From Paraflavisolibacter caeni (GTDB lineage Bacteria; Bacteroidota; Bacteroidia; Chitinophagales; Chitinophagaceae), in contig NZ_JAOTIF010000001.1 in assembly GCF_025628885.1 (NCBI RefSeq), positions 682,001 to 746,000 on the forward strand: DNA of 64,000 nucleotides, in the 5' to 3' direction. The notes beneath the pieces are model-generated. The model was not told the origin of the DNA. It did not search any database and saw nothing but the letters and a program-made list of their open reading frames with translations. A program made the position numbers and the translations under genes. Positions within the stretch are counted from its first letter, which is position 1; the number at the start of each line of letters is the position of its first letter. Shown here in pieces: positions 6,740-22,335 of this stretch.

Positions 6740-9700
6740 ATGGTTCAGAAATGGATCAAAAGAGCCGTTATTTTTTTTGCAATAATTATTTTTTTAATTG
6801 CAGGTTTTCTATTATTTCTCCACACACCCATTGGCAAATCAATCGTAAGACAAAAGGTTGAAAGCTATTTGCAACAGAAATGGATGACTGGGGTGAATAT
6901 TGGAAGTATCGATTACCGATTGCCAAACTGGATCGTCCTTGAGCAGGTGCTCATTTTGGATCGTAAAAGGGATACGCTGTTAAGCGGTGGCCGCCTGTAT
7001 GCCGGAATCAAGCCCCTTAAACTCCTTTCGAATACAGTTGATATCACTGGGGTTAGTTTAGAGGAGATTACGCTTCATTTAGGCCGCGAAGCCGGGGATA
7101 CCGCCTTCAATTTCCAGTTCATCCTTGATGCTTTTACGCCTTCTTCCAAGCCAAAGACAGCCCCATCAAAAAGCACTCCCATGCAATTGTCGGCTAATAA
7201 GCTCTTCCTGGATAATGTCAGGTTTAGCTTAAACGATAAGAAGGGGAAGTTTTACCTTTCTGCAGTCATTGGCAGTTTTTCCTGTACTCCTGATGAGCTT
7301 AACCTGGAAAAAACGACTTTCCGTGTCAATCAACTCCTGCTAATGAACAGCCAGGTATCCATTATTGACTCATTCTCATCGGGAAATAGTAAGCCTGTAA
7401 CAACTTCCAGTAGCCGGGCTGACCCGGCTGCCCTGGTAGTGGCCATCAATAAATTGGGGTTACAAAACATCCGGTTTTCATACCACGGCCCCTGCGATAA
7501 GACAGGTATTGATATCCTGGTAGATAGCTTGCAATTCAAAGATGGATTTTTGGACCTGGCCAGCCAAACTATTAAGGGCAGGCATATTAGCATAAACAAG
7601 TCAACTGTTGAACTGTTGAGCTGTATTCCGGCCAGGAAGGTAGCTTCTGAAAAAGAGCAGAAGCAATCGCCCACTAAAAATTATTATTGGGATATCCATG
7701 TAGACACGATTACGTTAAACAATAATTCATTTGCCTACCATAATTCAGCGGTTCCTGCAAAGGGTGGATTAGACTGGCAGCATCTCAATCTTCAAAGAAT
7801 TAGCCTGGTAATCACTCATGGTGATCTCGATTCTTCACGCCTGCTCACAAATCTGGATGTCCGCTCCCTGCTGATGAATGATCAGCTTAACTTTAAAAAA
7901 ATGACTGCCCAGGTCCGGCTCACTAAAAGCCTGTTGAGTGTAAGCGATCTTAGTGCCGCCATCAATCAGTCTCAATTGTCTACAAGAGGAAACCTTATAT
8001 TGCCTTACGGGCCTGGTTCTTACCAGGCTGCTAACCCTCCCAAAGTCCGGATTAAAAATTCAACCATCAATTATGGAGACCTGTTGTTGATACAACCCGG
8101 CCTAAAAAAAATATTACCTGTTTCGCTGTTGCCATCCGAAAATATAATGGTCTCAGCGAATGTTTCGGGAGACCTGTTCAACTTCAAGGCGGAAGAAGTT
8201 CGCCTTACAACTTCCAGTAAACAGGTTCAATTCAATGGCAGCATAGATTTGAATATCAGAGGCTCAACCGCGCCAGTTTATAAGGCTACCATTGATCAAC
8301 TGCATCTAAAAAAACAAATACTTTCAAAGGACCTTCTAGACCAGATTGAAAAAGCAAATACCAGGCTGCCCGGAGATGTCGCTATGGCAGGCCAAATACA
8401 GGGAACTGGCAAAAAGCTTACAGCCGATCTGAGGCTGAACAGCACATTAGGGCAATTGAATGTTAAAGGAACTGCTCAAAATATCAGTGATCCCAACCAA
8501 CTGGATTATGATTTTCAATTGGATGCCAACCAATTTGAAACCGGAAAATTGTTAGGGCTTGATTCTATTTTGGGAAAAACTACCGGCCATGTTTTGATCA
8601 AAGGCAGAGGAATACAGATGGGCCAATTGGCTGCAACTGTTGTACTGCAGCTTGCATCTGCAACGATCCAAGGGTATTCCTATTCCAATATTAACCTGGA
8701 AGGCGGAATCTCCAAATCAGTGTTTACTGCAAGAGGACGGATCGATGATCCCAACCTGGAAACAGAAATAGACCTCCAGGGTCATATCAGCAACCGGGGC
8801 ACTGCTGTGCAGGGGAATATTCTTATTGGGAGGGCTGACCTTAATAAGATTCATCTTACTGGCGATAGCATCATTGTAGCCTCCAACATCAATATTGATG
8901 CAGATTATGCAAGCCCACAACGAATCAATGCAAGTATCAGGGCAGATAGTAATAGAATCACCGTCCGGGGAAAGGAGGTTTTTGCAGACAGTATTTCATT
9001 CATTTGTAAATCTGACCCGGACAGTACTCTTCTATTGGCCAATGCTCCATTTATCAATGCAACACTGAGGTGCAATTATCCGGTTAATATGCTTTCCTCA
9101 GAAATCTCGTCTTTATTGAAAGCTGTTTACCTGGTGAAAGACCAGGCACATGTAGATCTCGGTCTGCCAGGTATGCGGAATCGCCGGACCAGTGTTGATG
9201 TGAAATTGACACAAGATGAATTATTGAGTTCATTGGTGCCGGAGCTTACATTCAATGAACCAGTAATGATAAATGGCACCTATGATGCAGGCAAAAAAGA
9301 TTCTTTTCTTTTTATTAAGATGTCAGCTCCCAGTATTCAGTATGACAATTATGTGGGTAATGATTTGCAATTTAAAGCGGAGTCATCCGATTCGGCAATA
9401 CAGTTTGTTTTATCAGGACGGGAAATACTTGGCGGAGCTAAGCCGCTTGCTTCCCCAAATATTACCGGCGAGTTGCGGAAAGACAAGTTGGATGTAAAGG
9501 GCAAGGTAGAAGACACTACGGGTAAGGAGTATTATTCGGGAAGTGTAGGTGTAACATTCGAAAAGAACAGAACTATATTCAGGCTGTCAGATGATTTAAA
9601 CCTTAACTATTCTAAATGGAAAGTACCCATTGACAATAGTGTGACTGTTCAAAAGGATGGTTTTATTGTGGACAATCTTTCTCTTGAAAATAAAGGCCAA

Positions 9701-14016: not shown

Positions 14017-14150
14017 ATAGATACTTTCTGTTTAGTTGTGAAAACCAATTCAGTGAGGAACTGGTTCTTCACATAAAACTTTCAGCAATAAATGAAAACA
14101 TTGAATTCATTTATTAGTGTTCCTGTAATTTCAACCTATAATTGAAAAGA

Positions 14151-14711
14151 ATGAAAAAAATTGCCGTAGCAATTTCAGGAGCCAGCGGAGCTATTTATGC
14201 CAAATTGTTGTTAGATAAATTAATATTACTAAAAGAGCAGGTGGCAGAGTTGTCAATTGCGATGAGTGATAATGCTCCTTTTGTATGGCAAACAGAAATA
14301 GGTGGCGAAGGTTATAAAAATTACAATGCGCGTTATTTTTCTACAAAAGATTTCACAGCACCTTTTGCTTCAGGGTCGGCTCAATACGACGCGTTGATCA
14401 TTGTTCCCTGTTCGATGGGTACTTTGGGCCGGATCGCTTCCGGCGTGTCAAACGATCTCATCACACGTGGTGCCGATGTGATACTTAAGGAGCGAAAAAA
14501 GTTGATATTGGTTTTGCGCGATACGCCCTATAATCTTGTGCATATCCGCAACATGGAGACCGTTACATTGGCTGGCGGCGTTATATGTCCGGCCTCGCCT
14601 TCATTTTACAGCAATCCTAAAACCATTGAAGATGCAGCCCTAACTGTGGTGAATAGGGTGATAGATCTGGTTGGCTTAAAACATGAGAGCTACCGTTGGG
14701 GAGGAATGTAG
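14151..14711 (+). CDS. ubiX: UbiX-type flavin prenyltransferase
   Basis: The product joins dimethylallyl phosphate to FMN to make prenylated FMN, the cofactor of UbiD decarboxylases. The N-terminus has the nucleotide-binding SGASGAIYAKLLLDKL, followed by PCSMGTLGRIASGVSNDLI and RDTPYNLVHIRNM, all family hallmarks. The length is 186 aa from the ATG at 14151; a TTG nine bases upstream is in frame but less likely. No ubiD partner is visible in the window. It converges on porT with only two bases between stops. Confidence 0.93.
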   Translation: MKKIAVAISGASGAIYAKLLLDKLILLKEQVAELSIAMSDNAPFVWQTEIGGEGYKNYNARYFSTKDFTAPFASGSAQYDALIIVPCSMGTLGRIASGVSNDLITRGADVILKERKKLILVLRDTPYNLVHIRNMETVTLAGGVICPASPSFYSNPKTIEDAALTVVNRVIDLVGLKHESYRWGGM

Positions 14712-15639: not shown

Positions 15640-16386
15640 TCAAGCAGGCTTTCTCCCACGATAGATACAGCAAATTCCAAGAGTGAGTGGTTTGAAAGAA
15701 GTTTCTATATAACCGGCTTTATTCAATACAGTTATAAAATCTTTTCGGTCAGGAAAAGCTTTGGCTGATTCGTTAAGATATTGATAGGCCCTTTTGTTCT
15801 GACTAAAGAGTTTTGCAATTTGTGGTGCTATTACACCCATATAAAAGTTATACAATGATCTTACTCCTGGGATTCTCGGTTTACTAAATTCCAGTACAAT
15901 CAGTCTCGCTCCTGGTTTCATTACCCGCAGTATTTCACTCATGCCTTTCTCCAGGTGTTCAAAATTGCGAACACCGAATGCTGCCATAACTGCATCAAAA
16001 GTGTTATCTCCAAAATTGATGGTTTCACTATCTCCTTGCAAAAGTTCAATTTTCCCGCTAAAGCCCTCTTTATCTACCTTCTGGCGACCTATTTCGAGCA
16101 TTTTTGCAGAAATGTCAATGCCTGTAATTTTGGTTGGATGCAACATTTTGCATGCGCGAATAGCCATATCGCCAGTGCCGGTAGCTACATCTAAAATATG
16201 CTGGGGTTGGTCTTTCTTCAGTTCCTTGATCGCTTTGATGCGCCAGCTTACATCAATGCCAGCACTCAAAAAACGGTTCATGAAATCATACCGGCCGGCT
16301 ATGCGGTCAAACATTTCACTTACCTGCTCCTTTTTACCACCTTGTACGTCGTAAGGCTTTATGCTGTCGTGGGGAAAATCTGTCAT
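15640..16386 (-). CDS. menG: Demethylmenaquinone methyltransferase MenG/UbiE
   Basis: SAM-dependent C-methylation of demethylmenaquinone, the last step of menaquinone synthesis. The 248-aa protein shows SAM motif I at residues 64-73 (ILDVATGTGD), ITGIDISAKMLEIG, AFGVRNFEHLEKG and the UbiE signature around RLIVLEFSKP and LYNFYMG. The ATG is at 16386. The promoter appears to share a perfect inverted repeat with the divergent engB (16391-16425), and the transcript may start almost at the start codon. Confidence 0.93.
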   Translation of the reverse strand: MTDFPHDSIKPYDVQGGKKEQVSEMFDRIAGRYDFMNRFLSAGIDVSWRIKAIKELKKDQPQHILDVATGTGDMAIRACKMLHPTKITGIDISAKMLEIGRQKVDKEGFSGKIELLQGDSETINFGDNTFDAVMAAFGVRNFEHLEKGMSEILRVMKPGARLIVLEFSKPRIPGVRSLYNFYMGVIAPQIAKLFSQNKRAYQYLNESAKAFPDRKDFITVLNKAGYIETSFKPLTLGICCIYRGRKPA

Positions 16387-18467: not shown

Positions 18468-19622
18468 TTAAAAAGGTTGGCCATGTGTTTTTTTGATGAC
18501 CGCCTTGGATAGAAAAGGAAACACCTGGAACATACCAACAAACAAGTTGCTCAAACGCTCATCACCAAAGAAGTTTTGGAGTATCCGGCCAGTCCTTAGT
18601 CGATTATAAAACTGATGGCGCCATTCGCGGGTATAGTCTGATTCCATTTGGCCTCGGGAAATAAGATTCTTTAAATAGGCTTCAATTAGCCTCGCGGCTA
18701 TCTTACTGCTGTGTAAGGCCATGCTCATGCCATTGCCACACAATGGTGTAATAGTGCCTGCGGCGTCACCCAGTAGCAGCACTCCGTTTTCCAACTGGCT
18801 TTTTACGCTAAAGTTGATTTGAGAGATCGCTAGGGGGAAACCAGGAAGTATTTCACTATGGGTAAAGATTTTTTTCAATGAGGGGTTCTTGAAAAGTATT
18901 TCCCGCTCCATTTCCGGGATAGAGGAATTGTGCTTTTTTAAATTGGCTGCAGTGGTCATATAACACAAGCAATACCGGTCATCTTCAATTTTCGAAATAC
19001 CACAATAGCCATCTTGGAAGTTGTGTAAGCCTATGACATTTGCCGGCCAATCCGTCATTATATGATATTTTACACCTATGTAATTTCTGTGGTGACTACT
19101 TTTATGTTCTAAAAAGTTTCGCTTCCATTTAATATCCAGGTTACTCCGTTTGCCAAAAGTGCCGCAACAAATTCTTGCTGTTAATTGCTTGCTATCCTCC
19201 TTATCCTGGTAAGAAACGATAAACTCCTGATCATCAAAAAGTATATCCGACACTTTGGTTTCTTCTAATACCAAAACCCCTCTTGCTCTTGCTATGGAAG
19301 CTAAATTAGCATCAATCATATATCGGCTCACGCCAAAGCCTCCTAAAGGGAGCTCAGCCGTAAGCTTACGTCCGTTAGGGGCAGACAACTGAAGTTTTTC
19401 TATCCTTGGCAGAGATAATGAGGTAAGTGGAAAGCCCAGGCTTTCCAGGAAATTCCACGATTCCATGCTGATGTATTCGCCACAAACTTTATGAAATGGA
19501 TACCGCTCCTTTTCAAACAACACCACAGTATACCCTCTGGAAGATAATTGTATAGATAAGGAAAGACCAGCCAGGCCTCCACCAACAATGGCTACATCAT
19601 ATATGGAATTAAGTTGACTCAT
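18468..19622 (-). CDS. FAD-dependent oxidoreductase, geranylgeranyl-reductase-like, of the PKS operon
   Basis: A 384-aa flavoprotein. A dinucleotide-binding GGGLAG is at residues 14-19, followed by an acidic strand end (LFEKER). FHKVCGE (43-49) is the Pro/Lys-Cys-Gly block typical of the geranylgeranyl reductase and related hydroxylase/halogenase group. A second FAD motif LLGDAAG is at 283-289. It could reduce a prenyl chain or hydroxylate a phenolic ring; the sequence does not decide which. Its ATG overlaps the stop of the methyltransferase by four bases, so it is the last gene of a coupled operon with a UbiA enzyme and a type III PKS. Confidence 0.8.
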   Translation of the reverse strand: MSQLNSIYDVAIVGGGLAGLSLSIQLSSRGYTVVLFEKERYPFHKVCGEYISMESWNFLESLGFPLTSLSLPRIEKLQLSAPNGRKLTAELPLGGFGVSRYMIDANLASIARARGVLVLEETKVSDILFDDQEFIVSYQDKEDSKQLTARICCGTFGKRSNLDIKWKRNFLEHKSSHHRNYIGVKYHIMTDWPANVIGLHNFQDGYCGISKIEDDRYCLCYMTTAANLKKHNSSIPEMEREILFKNPSLKKIFTHSEILPGFPLAISQINFSVKSQLENGVLLLGDAAGTITPLCGNGMSMALHSSKIAARLIEAYLKNLISRGQMESDYTREWRHQFYNRLRTGRILQNFFGDERLSNLFVGMFQVFPFLSKAVIKKTHGQPF

Positions 19623-20392
19623 TTCTTCCTACAGATAACCAGCCATCTGAACGCCCACTTCCACTGGCAAGTAAAATCCTCTATGTTTGCTTGCTGAAAA
19701 AGATTGCTCCACTCTTTCCTGATGAATCCCCGCTCTACCGAAAGGGGGGCATCGTTCTTTACCAGGTAACTTTTTGAAAAGATGCTGGTGAGCAATTTAA
19801 TGGAATAATAGGCGAGGGGATGCCGGTGCAGATCGTTGATAAAAAAGCCAATGGAACTGTTACGATACATCCATTTTAATTGAAATACCAATTCTTCATC
19901 AGTAAAATGATGACAGAAAAGGGATGAAAAAACCACTTGTCTGGAGGGCAAAAGCATAACCGAGCGGTAATCGGAACATATAAAACGAATGTCTTTATTT
20001 TGAGGCTGCTCCTTGGCAAAGGCAATACATTCTTTATTGATGTCGATACCTGTAAGCTCAACCTTTACATGATTTTTTTCTGCCCATTTTTGTATGGTGA
20101 ATAAATTATTCCCTCCTCCACAGCCAATTTCTGTTATTTGCACGGGCTCTTGTCTCTTGTGATTTTTTAATAAGGCTTTCACTCCTTGAAGGGTAATATG
20201 GTGCCCGCCCAACCGATGGTTAATAAAAGCCAATTCCTCCATATTCTTTTTTATATCTCTAAAAGGAATAAATGGATTGTCAAGTAGTTCTTTTTGATAT
20301 GATCTAAACTTCTGTTTGATAGGATCAATATTGATTTTAGGAATAAAATACAAAAAGAATCGTTCCTGCTCAATTCCTTTTAAGATGAACAA
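19619..20392 (-). CDS. Class I SAM-dependent methyltransferase of the PKS operon
   Basis: Up to 257 aa. SAM motif I is EIGCGGGNN (residues 88-96), followed by ELTGIDINKECIAFAK (motif II), FICSDYR and the FSSLFCHHFTDEE motif. The conserved part begins near residue 29 (FRSYQKELLDNP) and the only early start is a TTG at 20392, so the true N-terminus is uncertain. A later TTG near residue 14 is possible. The likely job is O- or C-methylation of the polyketide phenol. It begins four bases after the PKS stop codon and overlaps the flavoprotein gene. Confidence 0.8.
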   Translation of the reverse strand: MFILKGIEQERFFLYFIPKINIDPIKQKFRSYQKELLDNPFIPFRDIKKNMEELAFINHRLGGHHITLQGVKALLKNHKRQEPVQITEIGCGGGNNLFTIQKWAEKNHVKVELTGIDINKECIAFAKEQPQNKDIRFICSDYRSVMLLPSRQVVFSSLFCHHFTDEELVFQLKWMYRNSSIGFFINDLHRHPLAYYSIKLLTSIFSKSYLVKNDAPLSVERGFIRKEWSNLFQQANIEDFTCQWKWAFRWLVICRKK

Positions 20393-20396
20393 TCAA

Positions 20397-21479
20397 TTAC
20401 GATACAGCAGTAAAAGTTTCAACTGTTAGCCCAGGCCCAAAAGACGCGGCAAAGACTTTCTTTTTTTCTTGGTTTTGATGCAAAATATTTTTCAACACAA
20501 ACAATATGGTTGCAGATGACATATTACCGTAATTCTTTAAGATATGGTAAGACTCTTGTAATTGTATTGGCTCAACGCCCGTACTTTTCTGAATGGCTTC
20601 AAGAATTTTCTTTCCTCCGGGATGTATGCACCAATGAGTAATTTCATCTTGTGAGAATATTTCAGACCGCAGGGAACGTTCTACAACACCCGAAAAATCT
20701 TCCTCTATAAGTTCAGGTACATAACCACTTAAGGTCATTAAAAAACCGGTTGAAGAAAGCTCCCAGGCCATGTCCCGCTTTCCTTTTGGGATCACTTCTG
20801 AATAAAATCCGGTTATGTCCAATCCTCTATAATCACTTTCTTCTGGTACTATTAAGGCAGCAGCAGCACCATCTGCAAACAGCAGGGACGACATGATATT
20901 ATCTGGTGTGGCTTCCCGCTGGAAATGCAACGTACAGAGTTCGGTACATACAATCAGTACACGCGCAGCTGAATTTCCTTTGCAGATAATATTCGCCAAC
21001 TTCAATGCATGGATAGCTGCATAGCAGCCCATGAAGTTTACGGAAGTACGAAAGATATCTTTCCTCAAATCCAATAATTCCATCACCTGTAGATCTAGTC
21101 CTGGTGCACTGAGGCCTGTGCAACTGACAGTCATTAGGTGAGTGATTTCTTCGTGGTGTATCACGCCATCAAGACAGTTGCGGATAGCGTCAATTGAAAG
21201 TTGTGGTGCGTGCTTGCTAAAAACAGCCATTCGCTGCTCAAGTGAAGGAAATGGTTCCAGGTTTTCACTTTGAGGGTAAAACCTCCATTCATTTACCGGG
21301 CGGCTGTAATCGGATAATACAGAATATCGTTGCTGAATACCGCTTTGACGGTAAACAAATCGCAACTTTCGCATTTCAGCTTCACCCACTGCATACACAG
21401 CCTCCATAAATTGTAGTATGTCATTTTGCTGGTGGCAAAATGCTGGTACTGCCGTGCCTATTGAAACGATCCTGCTCAA
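20397..21479 (-). CDS. Type III polyketide synthase (chalcone/stilbene synthase-like)
   Basis: A 360-aa homodimeric ketosynthase-fold enzyme that condenses a CoA-bound starter with malonyl-CoA units and cyclises the chain to a resorcinol, phloroglucinol or pyrone. The catalytic triad is intact: Cys152 in VNFMGCYAA, His286 in HWCIHPGGK and Asn319 in YGNMSSATI. The TVSCTGLSAPGLD block and the C-terminal FGPGLTVE are also family hallmarks. The start is a TTG at 21479 inside the UbiA coding end (59-base overlap). No adenylation or CoA-ligase gene for a starter is in the operon. Confidence 0.92.
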   Translation of the reverse strand: MSRIVSIGTAVPAFCHQQNDILQFMEAVYAVGEAEMRKLRFVYRQSGIQQRYSVLSDYSRPVNEWRFYPQSENLEPFPSLEQRMAVFSKHAPQLSIDAIRNCLDGVIHHEEITHLMTVSCTGLSAPGLDLQVMELLDLRKDIFRTSVNFMGCYAAIHALKLANIICKGNSAARVLIVCTELCTLHFQREATPDNIMSSLLFADGAAAALIVPEESDYRGLDITGFYSEVIPKGKRDMAWELSSTGFLMTLSGYVPELIEEDFSGVVERSLRSEIFSQDEITHWCIHPGGKKILEAIQKSTGVEPIQLQESYHILKNYGNMSSATILFVLKNILHQNQEKKKVFAASFGPGLTVETFTAVS

Positions 21480-22335
21480 TATGATTGGTATAAATAAGAG
21501 TGCTGAAAAAAATGATTGTGCAAAGGGTTGATACCAGGTTCATCAACAAGCTGTTCCTGAAATTTGCAGCTGTGTTGTTGATCCACACCCTAACCATCCA
21601 GTAACAAAAAAACAATACCACCGGTAAGGTAACGAGCAGGTATAAGTAAAACTTAGCCAGCTGTTCCTGCTGCCTGAATAAAATAAATAAAGAAATCGTG
21701 GCAATGATAAAGAGCAATGCACTGAAAATAAAAGTACCTCTTTTGCCTAGCAAGTAACTTAAGGTAACTACACCATCTTTGAGATCTGCATCGTGCTGGT
21801 AGATTTGAGTAAGCGGATACAAAGCACCAATCAGCAGACTGGCAATCCAACAGGGCAGAATGGGAATTGCTTGTGAAACTGCGCCTACACAGGCTGTATA
21901 TACCGCATAGAAAACTACAGCACCCTGGAAAACGAAAACGGTAAGAAATCCCACTACTGGGTAGCGCTTCAGTCGGATCTTCCGGTAACTGTATGCTCTG
22001 GAAGCAAGAATGTAGAACAAAATACACACCGCAAACCTGACATTCAAAAGCAAAACTGATAAACTAACCGCAAGTATGTCCATCACCACAGTAACAAAAA
22101 ACAATTGTTTTGTGGGCTGTAGTGGCTTTTCTAATCCACCAATAGGCGTTTCGTCTCGATCCATATATGAGTTATAGCCATTACTTGCAGGGTATACCAG
22201 CAAATGCAAGATCACGAAAGCAATGATTGCATGGAGCCAGTTCACATTCGGTGCCTGGCTGATAGCAAACAAATATACTGGCAGCAGGAAAAATGAAAAG
22301 TGAAACCTCAGTAGTTGGATAGTAGAACGGTGCAA
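21421..22335 (-). CDS. UbiA-family membrane prenyltransferase of the PKS operon
   Basis: A 304-aa integral membrane protein with about eight or nine helices. The two Asp-rich substrate motifs are present: NSYMDRDETP (Asn55, Asp59, Asp61) and YQHDADLKDG (Asp182, Asp184, Asp187). The YSYRKIRLKRYP segment (115-126) is the usual UbiA basic loop. UbiA enzymes transfer a prenyl chain from a diphosphate to an aromatic ring. The start is taken as TTG at 22335. It is the first gene of a four-gene operon with the type III PKS, whose 5' end it overlaps. Confidence 0.85.
   Translation of the reverse strand: MHRSTIQLLRFHFSFFLLPVYLFAISQAPNVNWLHAIIAFVILHLLVYPASNGYNSYMDRDETPIGGLEKPLQPTKQLFFVTVVMDILAVSLSVLLLNVRFAVCILFYILASRAYSYRKIRLKRYPVVGFLTVFVFQGAVVFYAVYTACVGAVSQAIPILPCWIASLLIGALYPLTQIYQHDADLKDGVVTLSYLLGKRGTFIFSALLFIIATISLFILFRQQEQLAKFYLYLLVTLPVVLFFCYWMVRVWINNTAANFRNSLLMNLVSTLCTIIFFSTLIYTNHIEQDRFNRHGSTSILPPAK

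Follow-up and report, generated by a model that had tools for sequence, protein, structure and literature searches.

The window analyzed here is a stretch of 64,000 nucleotides from the Chitinophagaceae bacterium Paraflavisolibacter caeni (assembly GCF_025628885.1, contig NZ_JAOTIF010000001.1, positions 682,001 to 746,000), and carries at positions 18468–22335, on the minus strand, a compact four-gene operon built around a type III polyketide synthase (PKS). The first gene (21421–22335, TTG start) encodes a UbiA-fold integral membrane protein of 304 residues (PF01040, 68.1 bits), the second (20397–21479, TTG start) the PKS of 360 residues (PF00195, 104.3 bits; PF02797, 79.7 bits), the third (19619–20392, TTG start) a class I S-adenosylmethionine (SAM)-dependent methyltransferase (MT) of 257 residues (Methyltransf_25, 40.2 bits), and the fourth (18468–19622, ATG start) a flavin adenine dinucleotide (FAD)-dependent oxidoreductase of 384 residues (FAD_binding_3, 48.5 bits), a member of the superfamily of aromatic hydroxylases/halogenases and geranylgeranyl reductases, here called the flavoprotein. 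All Pfam scores are above cut-off. UbiA and PKS genes overlap by 59 nt; a gap of 4 nt separates the PKS gene from the MT gene, which in turn shares 4 nt with the flavoprotein gene. An initial annotation had described four minus-strand genes overlapping or four bases apart, and the open reading frames (ORFs) and Pfam domains were verified at these positions. As it also stated, none of the four genes encodes an activating ligase; no ketosynthase or acyl carrier protein (ACP) is found among them either. The host genome (7.0 Mb) has six UbiA-family genes, and a search for type III PKSs gives one match. By PKS, the closest named relatives reside in Cnuella, Paracnuella and Flavisolibacter, with identities of 69% at most in the relatives search.

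The catalytic triad C152/H286/N319, reported intact in the initial annotation, is present in the window PKS and invariant in all 52 aligned PKS rows, as are C182, H185, F201, W239 and S321. Alignments, each including the window sequence, were made from 57 of 98 (A2), 51 of 105 (A3) and 51 of 117 (A4) loci. The top NCBIfam match of the PKS is DpgA (NF042429), at 147.1 bits below the cut-off of 425; the best sequence match among solved structures is Steely1, which does not fix starter or product. Reading the starter length from cavity residues was dropped, as on inspection of the alignment these are not diagnostic.

The four genes travel together. Among the named relatives, taken as the best 80 of 437, UbiA lies on the same strand as the PKS and at most 4 kb away in all 80 loci; for MT and flavoprotein the counts are 77 and 74. 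Six of the 80 lack MT and/or flavoprotein; in four of these the sequence stops within 740 bases past the PKS, and in two (L016, L022) both genes were not found in the 8 kb downstream. Near relatives share flanking genes as well, such as a CoA-binding gene (31/39) and an RNaseH-like gene (27/39) in loci of at least 17 kb, and are therefore insufficient as proof when taken alone. The class was surveyed in 295 evenly drawn genomes, of which 76 contain a PKS match at E 1e-20. Divided at 200 bits, these matches form group A (54 genomes) and group D (22 genomes). Group A genomes span 27 families and contain UbiA (54/54), MT (53/54) and flavoprotein (49/54), with the complete set in 48; in 49 no more than 4 kb separates UbiA from the PKS. 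Group D genomes contain MT (15/22) and flavoprotein (15/22), and UbiA in one, where the copy lies at the edge of a contig. In the other 219 genomes MT and flavoprotein were not found at the set limits, and UbiA was found in six; in G228 a contig ends in a fragment of a PKS, and the other five have lower UbiA scores, 78–145 bits. Absence here means no match at E 1e-20 (PKS), 1e-8 (UbiA), 1e-60 (flavoprotein) or 1e-30 (MT); absences are soft, as few candidates were scored per genome (up to six in the wide UbiA and the flavoprotein searches, nine for MT, five for the PKS in the phylum search). The Fisher value for co-occurrence of PKS and UbiA is 7.6e-52, a figure which ignores shared ancestry.

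The set is retained through rearrangements. UbiA and PKS are divergently oriented in several families, or UbiA follows the flavoprotein gene, which sometimes precedes UbiA. UbiA-PKS and MT-FAD form separate pairs on different contigs in two genomes (L210, L211), and UbiA is located away from the PKS in L163–L166 and L174. Fourteen genomes were chosen for having no flavoprotein gene adjoining the PKS: 12 have one elsewhere, and in two (G015, G220) none was found. ORFs of 120 loci were clustered; in the 40 distant loci the PKS recurs in 37, UbiA in 35, MT in 30, flavoprotein in 27, and the next gene in 8, so that no recurrent fifth gene was found there. A chance run of genes, or mere synteny of near relatives, is rejected, as only these four genes recur in distant loci, and co-occur even where unlinked. 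The four genes form a genuine module and, as the initial annotation had supposed, a single conserved pathway centred on a type III PKS. Gene set, order and co-inheritance, as the predicted folds and conserved residues, were computed directly.

Some loci at the margins of the module deserve mention. The contig labelled Beijerinckiaceae (L086) bears the operon within Chitinophagaceae-like flanks, and the assembly is probably mis-binned. L155 shares the flanking clusters c18, RR27 and SDR23 with L120 and L127; PKS, MT and flavoprotein genes are absent, a diverged UbiA (33%; 8266–9120) is left, and the locus looks like a case of pathway loss. An unlinked UbiA adjoins a methyltransferase-like gene, identified by eye, in L163 and L164 (the L163 gene has no NCBIfam match), and in L165 a gene resembling phthiotriol dimycocerosate methyltransferase, with a score under the cut-off. 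A YceI gene (PF04264) lies directly upstream of UbiA in L122, L149 and L152, and up to three genes away in L145 and, by clustering only, in L134; YceI proteins are isoprenoid binders. One planctomycete-like PKS operon is described as having a gene for a lipid/isoprenoid-binding protein (PMC10896814). In the window, genes for a UbiX-like flavoprotein (14142–14711) and a UbiE-family methyltransferase (15640–16386) lie some 2–4 kb past the operon. Both were rejected as pathway members, the former being found at none and the latter at 12 of the 39 loci that span 17 kb or more.

The coupling of UbiA to the PKS is not strict throughout the phylum, and this idea was rejected, as PKS trios devoid of this UbiA reside in other families. 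All 46 UbiA-positive genomes examined contain a PKS. In the phylum draw a PKS was found at E 1e-90 in 97 of 355 genomes, many from families with no UbiA match in a separate UbiA draw, the genomes of which may differ. A UbiA of family f84, used as query, found a match in one of nine PKS-positive genomes. In six PKS loci of this family the gene belongs to a PKS-MT-FAD trio whose MT and flavoprotein score low; in three UbiA loci (L160–L162) none of PKS, MT and flavoprotein was found nearby. The UbiA homologues at the latter feature NSYWDKDEGPIGG, with Q at the first position of motif II, and are adjoined, as seen by eye, by a thioredoxin-like gene.

A PKS tree was made from 82 rows, including 10 named plasmid PKSs. 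Group D rows and Rhizobium BcsA are split from the remainder (support 100/99). All group A rows fall in one group (97/90), which also includes three family f73 rows; these come from another class and likewise have UbiA adjoining the PKS. A further member is the PKS of the Psychrobacter plasmid, near which the profile search found no UbiA. The simplest reading of the tree, in which several internal supports are modest, would be that this PKS lineage acquired UbiA once.

The window protein has the fold of the UbiA superfamily, and was aligned with homologues from 89 of 112 UbiA loci (A1, 90 rows). The initial annotation attributed to it both Asp motifs, a claim which does not survive the alignment. 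Motif I reads NSYMDRDE in the window (N55xxxD59xD61) and departs from the canonical NDxxDxxxD: N55 is conserved in 89/90 and D59 in 88/90 rows, ND is changed to NS in the window, and the third Asp is not conserved, position 63 being acidic in 16/90 rows. The canonical DxxxD of motif II is replaced in the window by YQHDAD (Q180HxxD184). In the register set by alignment to 4od4, the first position is Gln in 87/90 rows and acidic in none, and the second Asp is conserved in 89/90. The Gln takes the place of AfUbiA D198, which is among the four Mg ligands; function of EcMenA required the equivalents of AfUbiA N68, D72, D198 and D202, and the change D198A made binding of geranyl diphosphate by AfUbiA 45-fold weaker, and no more (PMC4106721). 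As Gln replaces a Mg-ligand Asp, prenyl transfer by these proteins may not be taken as assured. A UbiA with Gln at the usual Mg-binding Asp is well suited to test cleanly whether such enzymes can function with another metal site or another donor.

We estimate at roughly 0.58 the probability that the operon makes a membrane-associated aromatic lipid, likeliest a methylated, hydroxylated phenol or quinone, by PKS ring formation, UbiA-dependent alkylation, methylation, and hydroxylation. We infer the chemical steps, their order, the starter and the prenyl donor as follows. The PKS would draw an acyl starter from general metabolism, since ligase, ketosynthase and ACP are missing from the operon, add malonyl units and close an aromatic ring, probably a 5-alkylresorcinol by analogy with related trios. 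The UbiA-fold enzyme would alkylate the ring in the membrane, in the simplest case by transferring a prenyl group from its diphosphate; the MT would methylate the ring on carbon or oxygen, and the flavoprotein hydroxylate it to a hydroquinone or quinone. Several observations weigh against this scheme. Besides the Gln in motif II, the flavoprotein is missing in 5/54 and MT in 1/54 group A genomes, and trios devoid of this UbiA exist in Deinococcus, Psychrobacter, Paludisphaera and Methylobacterium, as in other families of the phylum. Furthermore, UbiA adjoins losA in an actinomycete locus, the heterologous expression of which, with a promoter given to losA alone, yielded unprenylated alkylresorcinols (PMC7587189).

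The same observations on the metal site (Gln at the Mg-ligand position, an unconserved third Asp in motif I), on UbiA-less trios of other phyla and on the actinomycete locus favor an unprenylated alkylresorcinol or alkylquinone, as made by the known trio, with the UbiA-fold protein devoted to another donor, to cyclization or to product handling. We regard this as a real possibility, though clearly a minority one: UbiA is present in every group A genome, held as tightly as the MT and above the flavoprotein; the UbiA fold with N55, D59, D184 and basic residues would suit diphosphate binding; and a prenylation step, untested, has been proposed by the authors who described a cluster in Gephyromycinifex (PMC8779670). 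The product class is not readable from the PKS sequence, and some bacterial type III PKSs make pyrones; an alkylpyrone, with the neighbours acting on other substrates, is nevertheless highly improbable, given that the genes are co-inherited even where unlinked and that the partner enzymes are of aromatic-tailoring types.

The window MT matches those of five named loci (5/5, 24–32% identity), as does the PKS (5/5, 35–41%), and the flavoprotein matches four of five (21–27%) by BLASTP; the remaining one, from Deinococcus, scores 26.9 bits with a 58-row profile. MT homologues begin near window residue 28–30 in alignment A3, and the true MT start may lie about 28 codons further in. GGGLAG and KxCGE, noted earlier in the flavoprotein, are both present, the second as KVCGE. 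They had been taken as signs of a geranylgeranyl reductase, and are the features to cite for a flavoprotein which reduces the prenyl chain, the product then carrying a saturated isoprenoid tail supplied by UbiA. This role is very unlikely, and the assignment to the geranylgeranyl-reductase type was not supported. The match to TIGR02032 (geranylgeranyl reductase) is 109.7 bits, under the cut-off of 158.8; the geranylgeranyl-reductase substrate motif is YxWxFP, and the literal Y.W.FP is found in 0/58 flavoprotein rows; the model (pLDDT 92.3) has as nearest folds FasV, PltA, ChlB4, Mpy16 and Bmp2, all aromatic halogenases/hydroxylases. On this evidence the flavoprotein resembles the aromatic hydroxylases/halogenases more than the geranylgeranyl reductases.

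A bolder version of the prenylated product is offered tentatively and is rather unlikely: a second isoprenoid-quinone pathway, in which the head group would come from acetate through the type III PKS rather than from chorismate, the variant UbiA with its shifted metal site would add the polyprenyl tail, and MT and flavin hydroxylase would complete the quinone in the manner of ubiquinone synthesis. If true, dozens of families would have kept a redox lipid that went unnoticed since menaquinone dominates. PKS and UbiA are found jointly in 54 of the 295 sampled class genomes, in 27 families. Bacteroidota genomes with type III PKS clusters have been reported, without products (PMC12565237, PMC10752948). 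No publication on the four-gene set in Bacteroidota was found in the open-licence literature, and the description of the pathway as uncharacterized stands to that extent.

Among the closest known systems are trios of PKS, MT and FAD oxidoreductase. Genes homologous to those of the window MT and flavoprotein adjoin the PKS in such trios from several phyla, as judged from the five named plasmid loci compared. MT and flavoprotein had been assigned to families other than those of known sets such as Streptomyces srsABC: this holds with respect to the isoprenylcysteine carboxyl methyltransferase (ICMT) type, known here from the description of an S. griseus-like cluster (PMC8779670) and different from the Methyltransf_25 type of the window MT, and fails with respect to the trios. 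Of 96 PKS genes of Planctomycetota, 58 belong to the trio; trio PKSs and variants tested made alkylresorcinols, and co-expression of MT and oxidoreductase from Gimesia maris added one methyl, probably on carbon, the role of the oxidoreductase being unknown (PMC10896814). Cyanobacterial hierridin clusters (hidABC) resemble the Planctomycetota trio, and one hierridin-like cluster carries a prenyltransferase (PMC8086630). Like the window, all these have PKS, SAM-dependent MT and FAD oxidoreductase in a single operon.

Plasmids carry trios as well. PKS genes with MT and FAD genes were identified on plasmids of Deinococcus radiodurans, D. proteolyticus, Psychrobacter urativorans, Paludisphaera borealis, Methylobacterium oryzae and Roseomonas haemaphysalidis. 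The Sphingobium yanoikuyae plasmid has PKS, MT and a 'NAD(P)-binding protein', that of Novosphingobium PKS and FAD genes with an MT 2 kb away; no MT or FAD gene adjoins Rhizobium etli bcsA, and the Paenibacillus PKS record is unannotated at that stretch. All three window proteins match the Paludisphaera trio, which differs in gene order (MT-FAD-PKS), in a PKS 35% identical, and in having no annotated UbiA. PKSs of D. radiodurans and P. urativorans are 39% and 41% identical to that of the window, and the order in D. radiodurans is PKS-MT-FAD, as in the window; both loci differ from it in that no UbiA is annotated within 5 kb, a result which the profile search bears out for Psychrobacter. A 304-residue 'hypothetical protein' adjoining the Psychrobacter trio was rejected as a hidden UbiA, having no match to the UbiA profile. 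No UbiA is annotated at the named plasmid PKS stretches, and the window UbiA has no match at E 1e-3 among 72,556 plasmid records, 136 of which contain a type III PKS.

Group D loci, from the same class, have MT and flavoprotein of the same families as the window, both in 15/22 genomes, and differ in having a PKS about 30% identical, which branches apart with Rhizobium BcsA, and no UbiA match in 21/22 genomes. Those read (L180, L182, L183) feature FAD-MT-PKS followed by varying subsets of an enoyl-reductase-like short-chain dehydrogenase/reductase, a FabA-like dehydratase, a β-ketoacyl-ACP synthase, a small ACP-like protein and a phosphopantetheinyl transferase, unlike the window operon, and no UbiA; L181, L184–L186, L191 and L192 were inspected for gene lengths alone. 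The contrast between loci with their own ketoacyl synthase and ACP-like genes and no UbiA, and the window operon, bears on the origin of the lipophilic part of the products.

UbiA-type enzymes prenylate type III PKS products in plant cannabinoid pathways, the logic of which, polyketide ring first and membrane prenylation later, is that proposed here; these pathways are not known to have an MT-FAD pair. The plant enzymes differ in featuring the canonical NxxxDxxxD (PMC12172877). UbiA had been viewed as an unprecedented addition to a type III PKS set, a view which two actinomycetes contradict. As in the window, the loseolamycin locus (PMC7587189) and the S. griseus-like cluster of Gephyromycinifex (PMC8779670) have UbiA close to a type III PKS and to methyltransferase/oxygenase genes, the likeness being one of gene content; they differ from the window by an acyl-CoA dehydrogenase gene in the former, and an ICMT-type methyltransferase in the latter. 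The PKS-MT-FAD trio, and UbiA beside a type III PKS in two actinomycetes, were thus already known, and the new element is the four-gene variant in which UbiA joins the trio.

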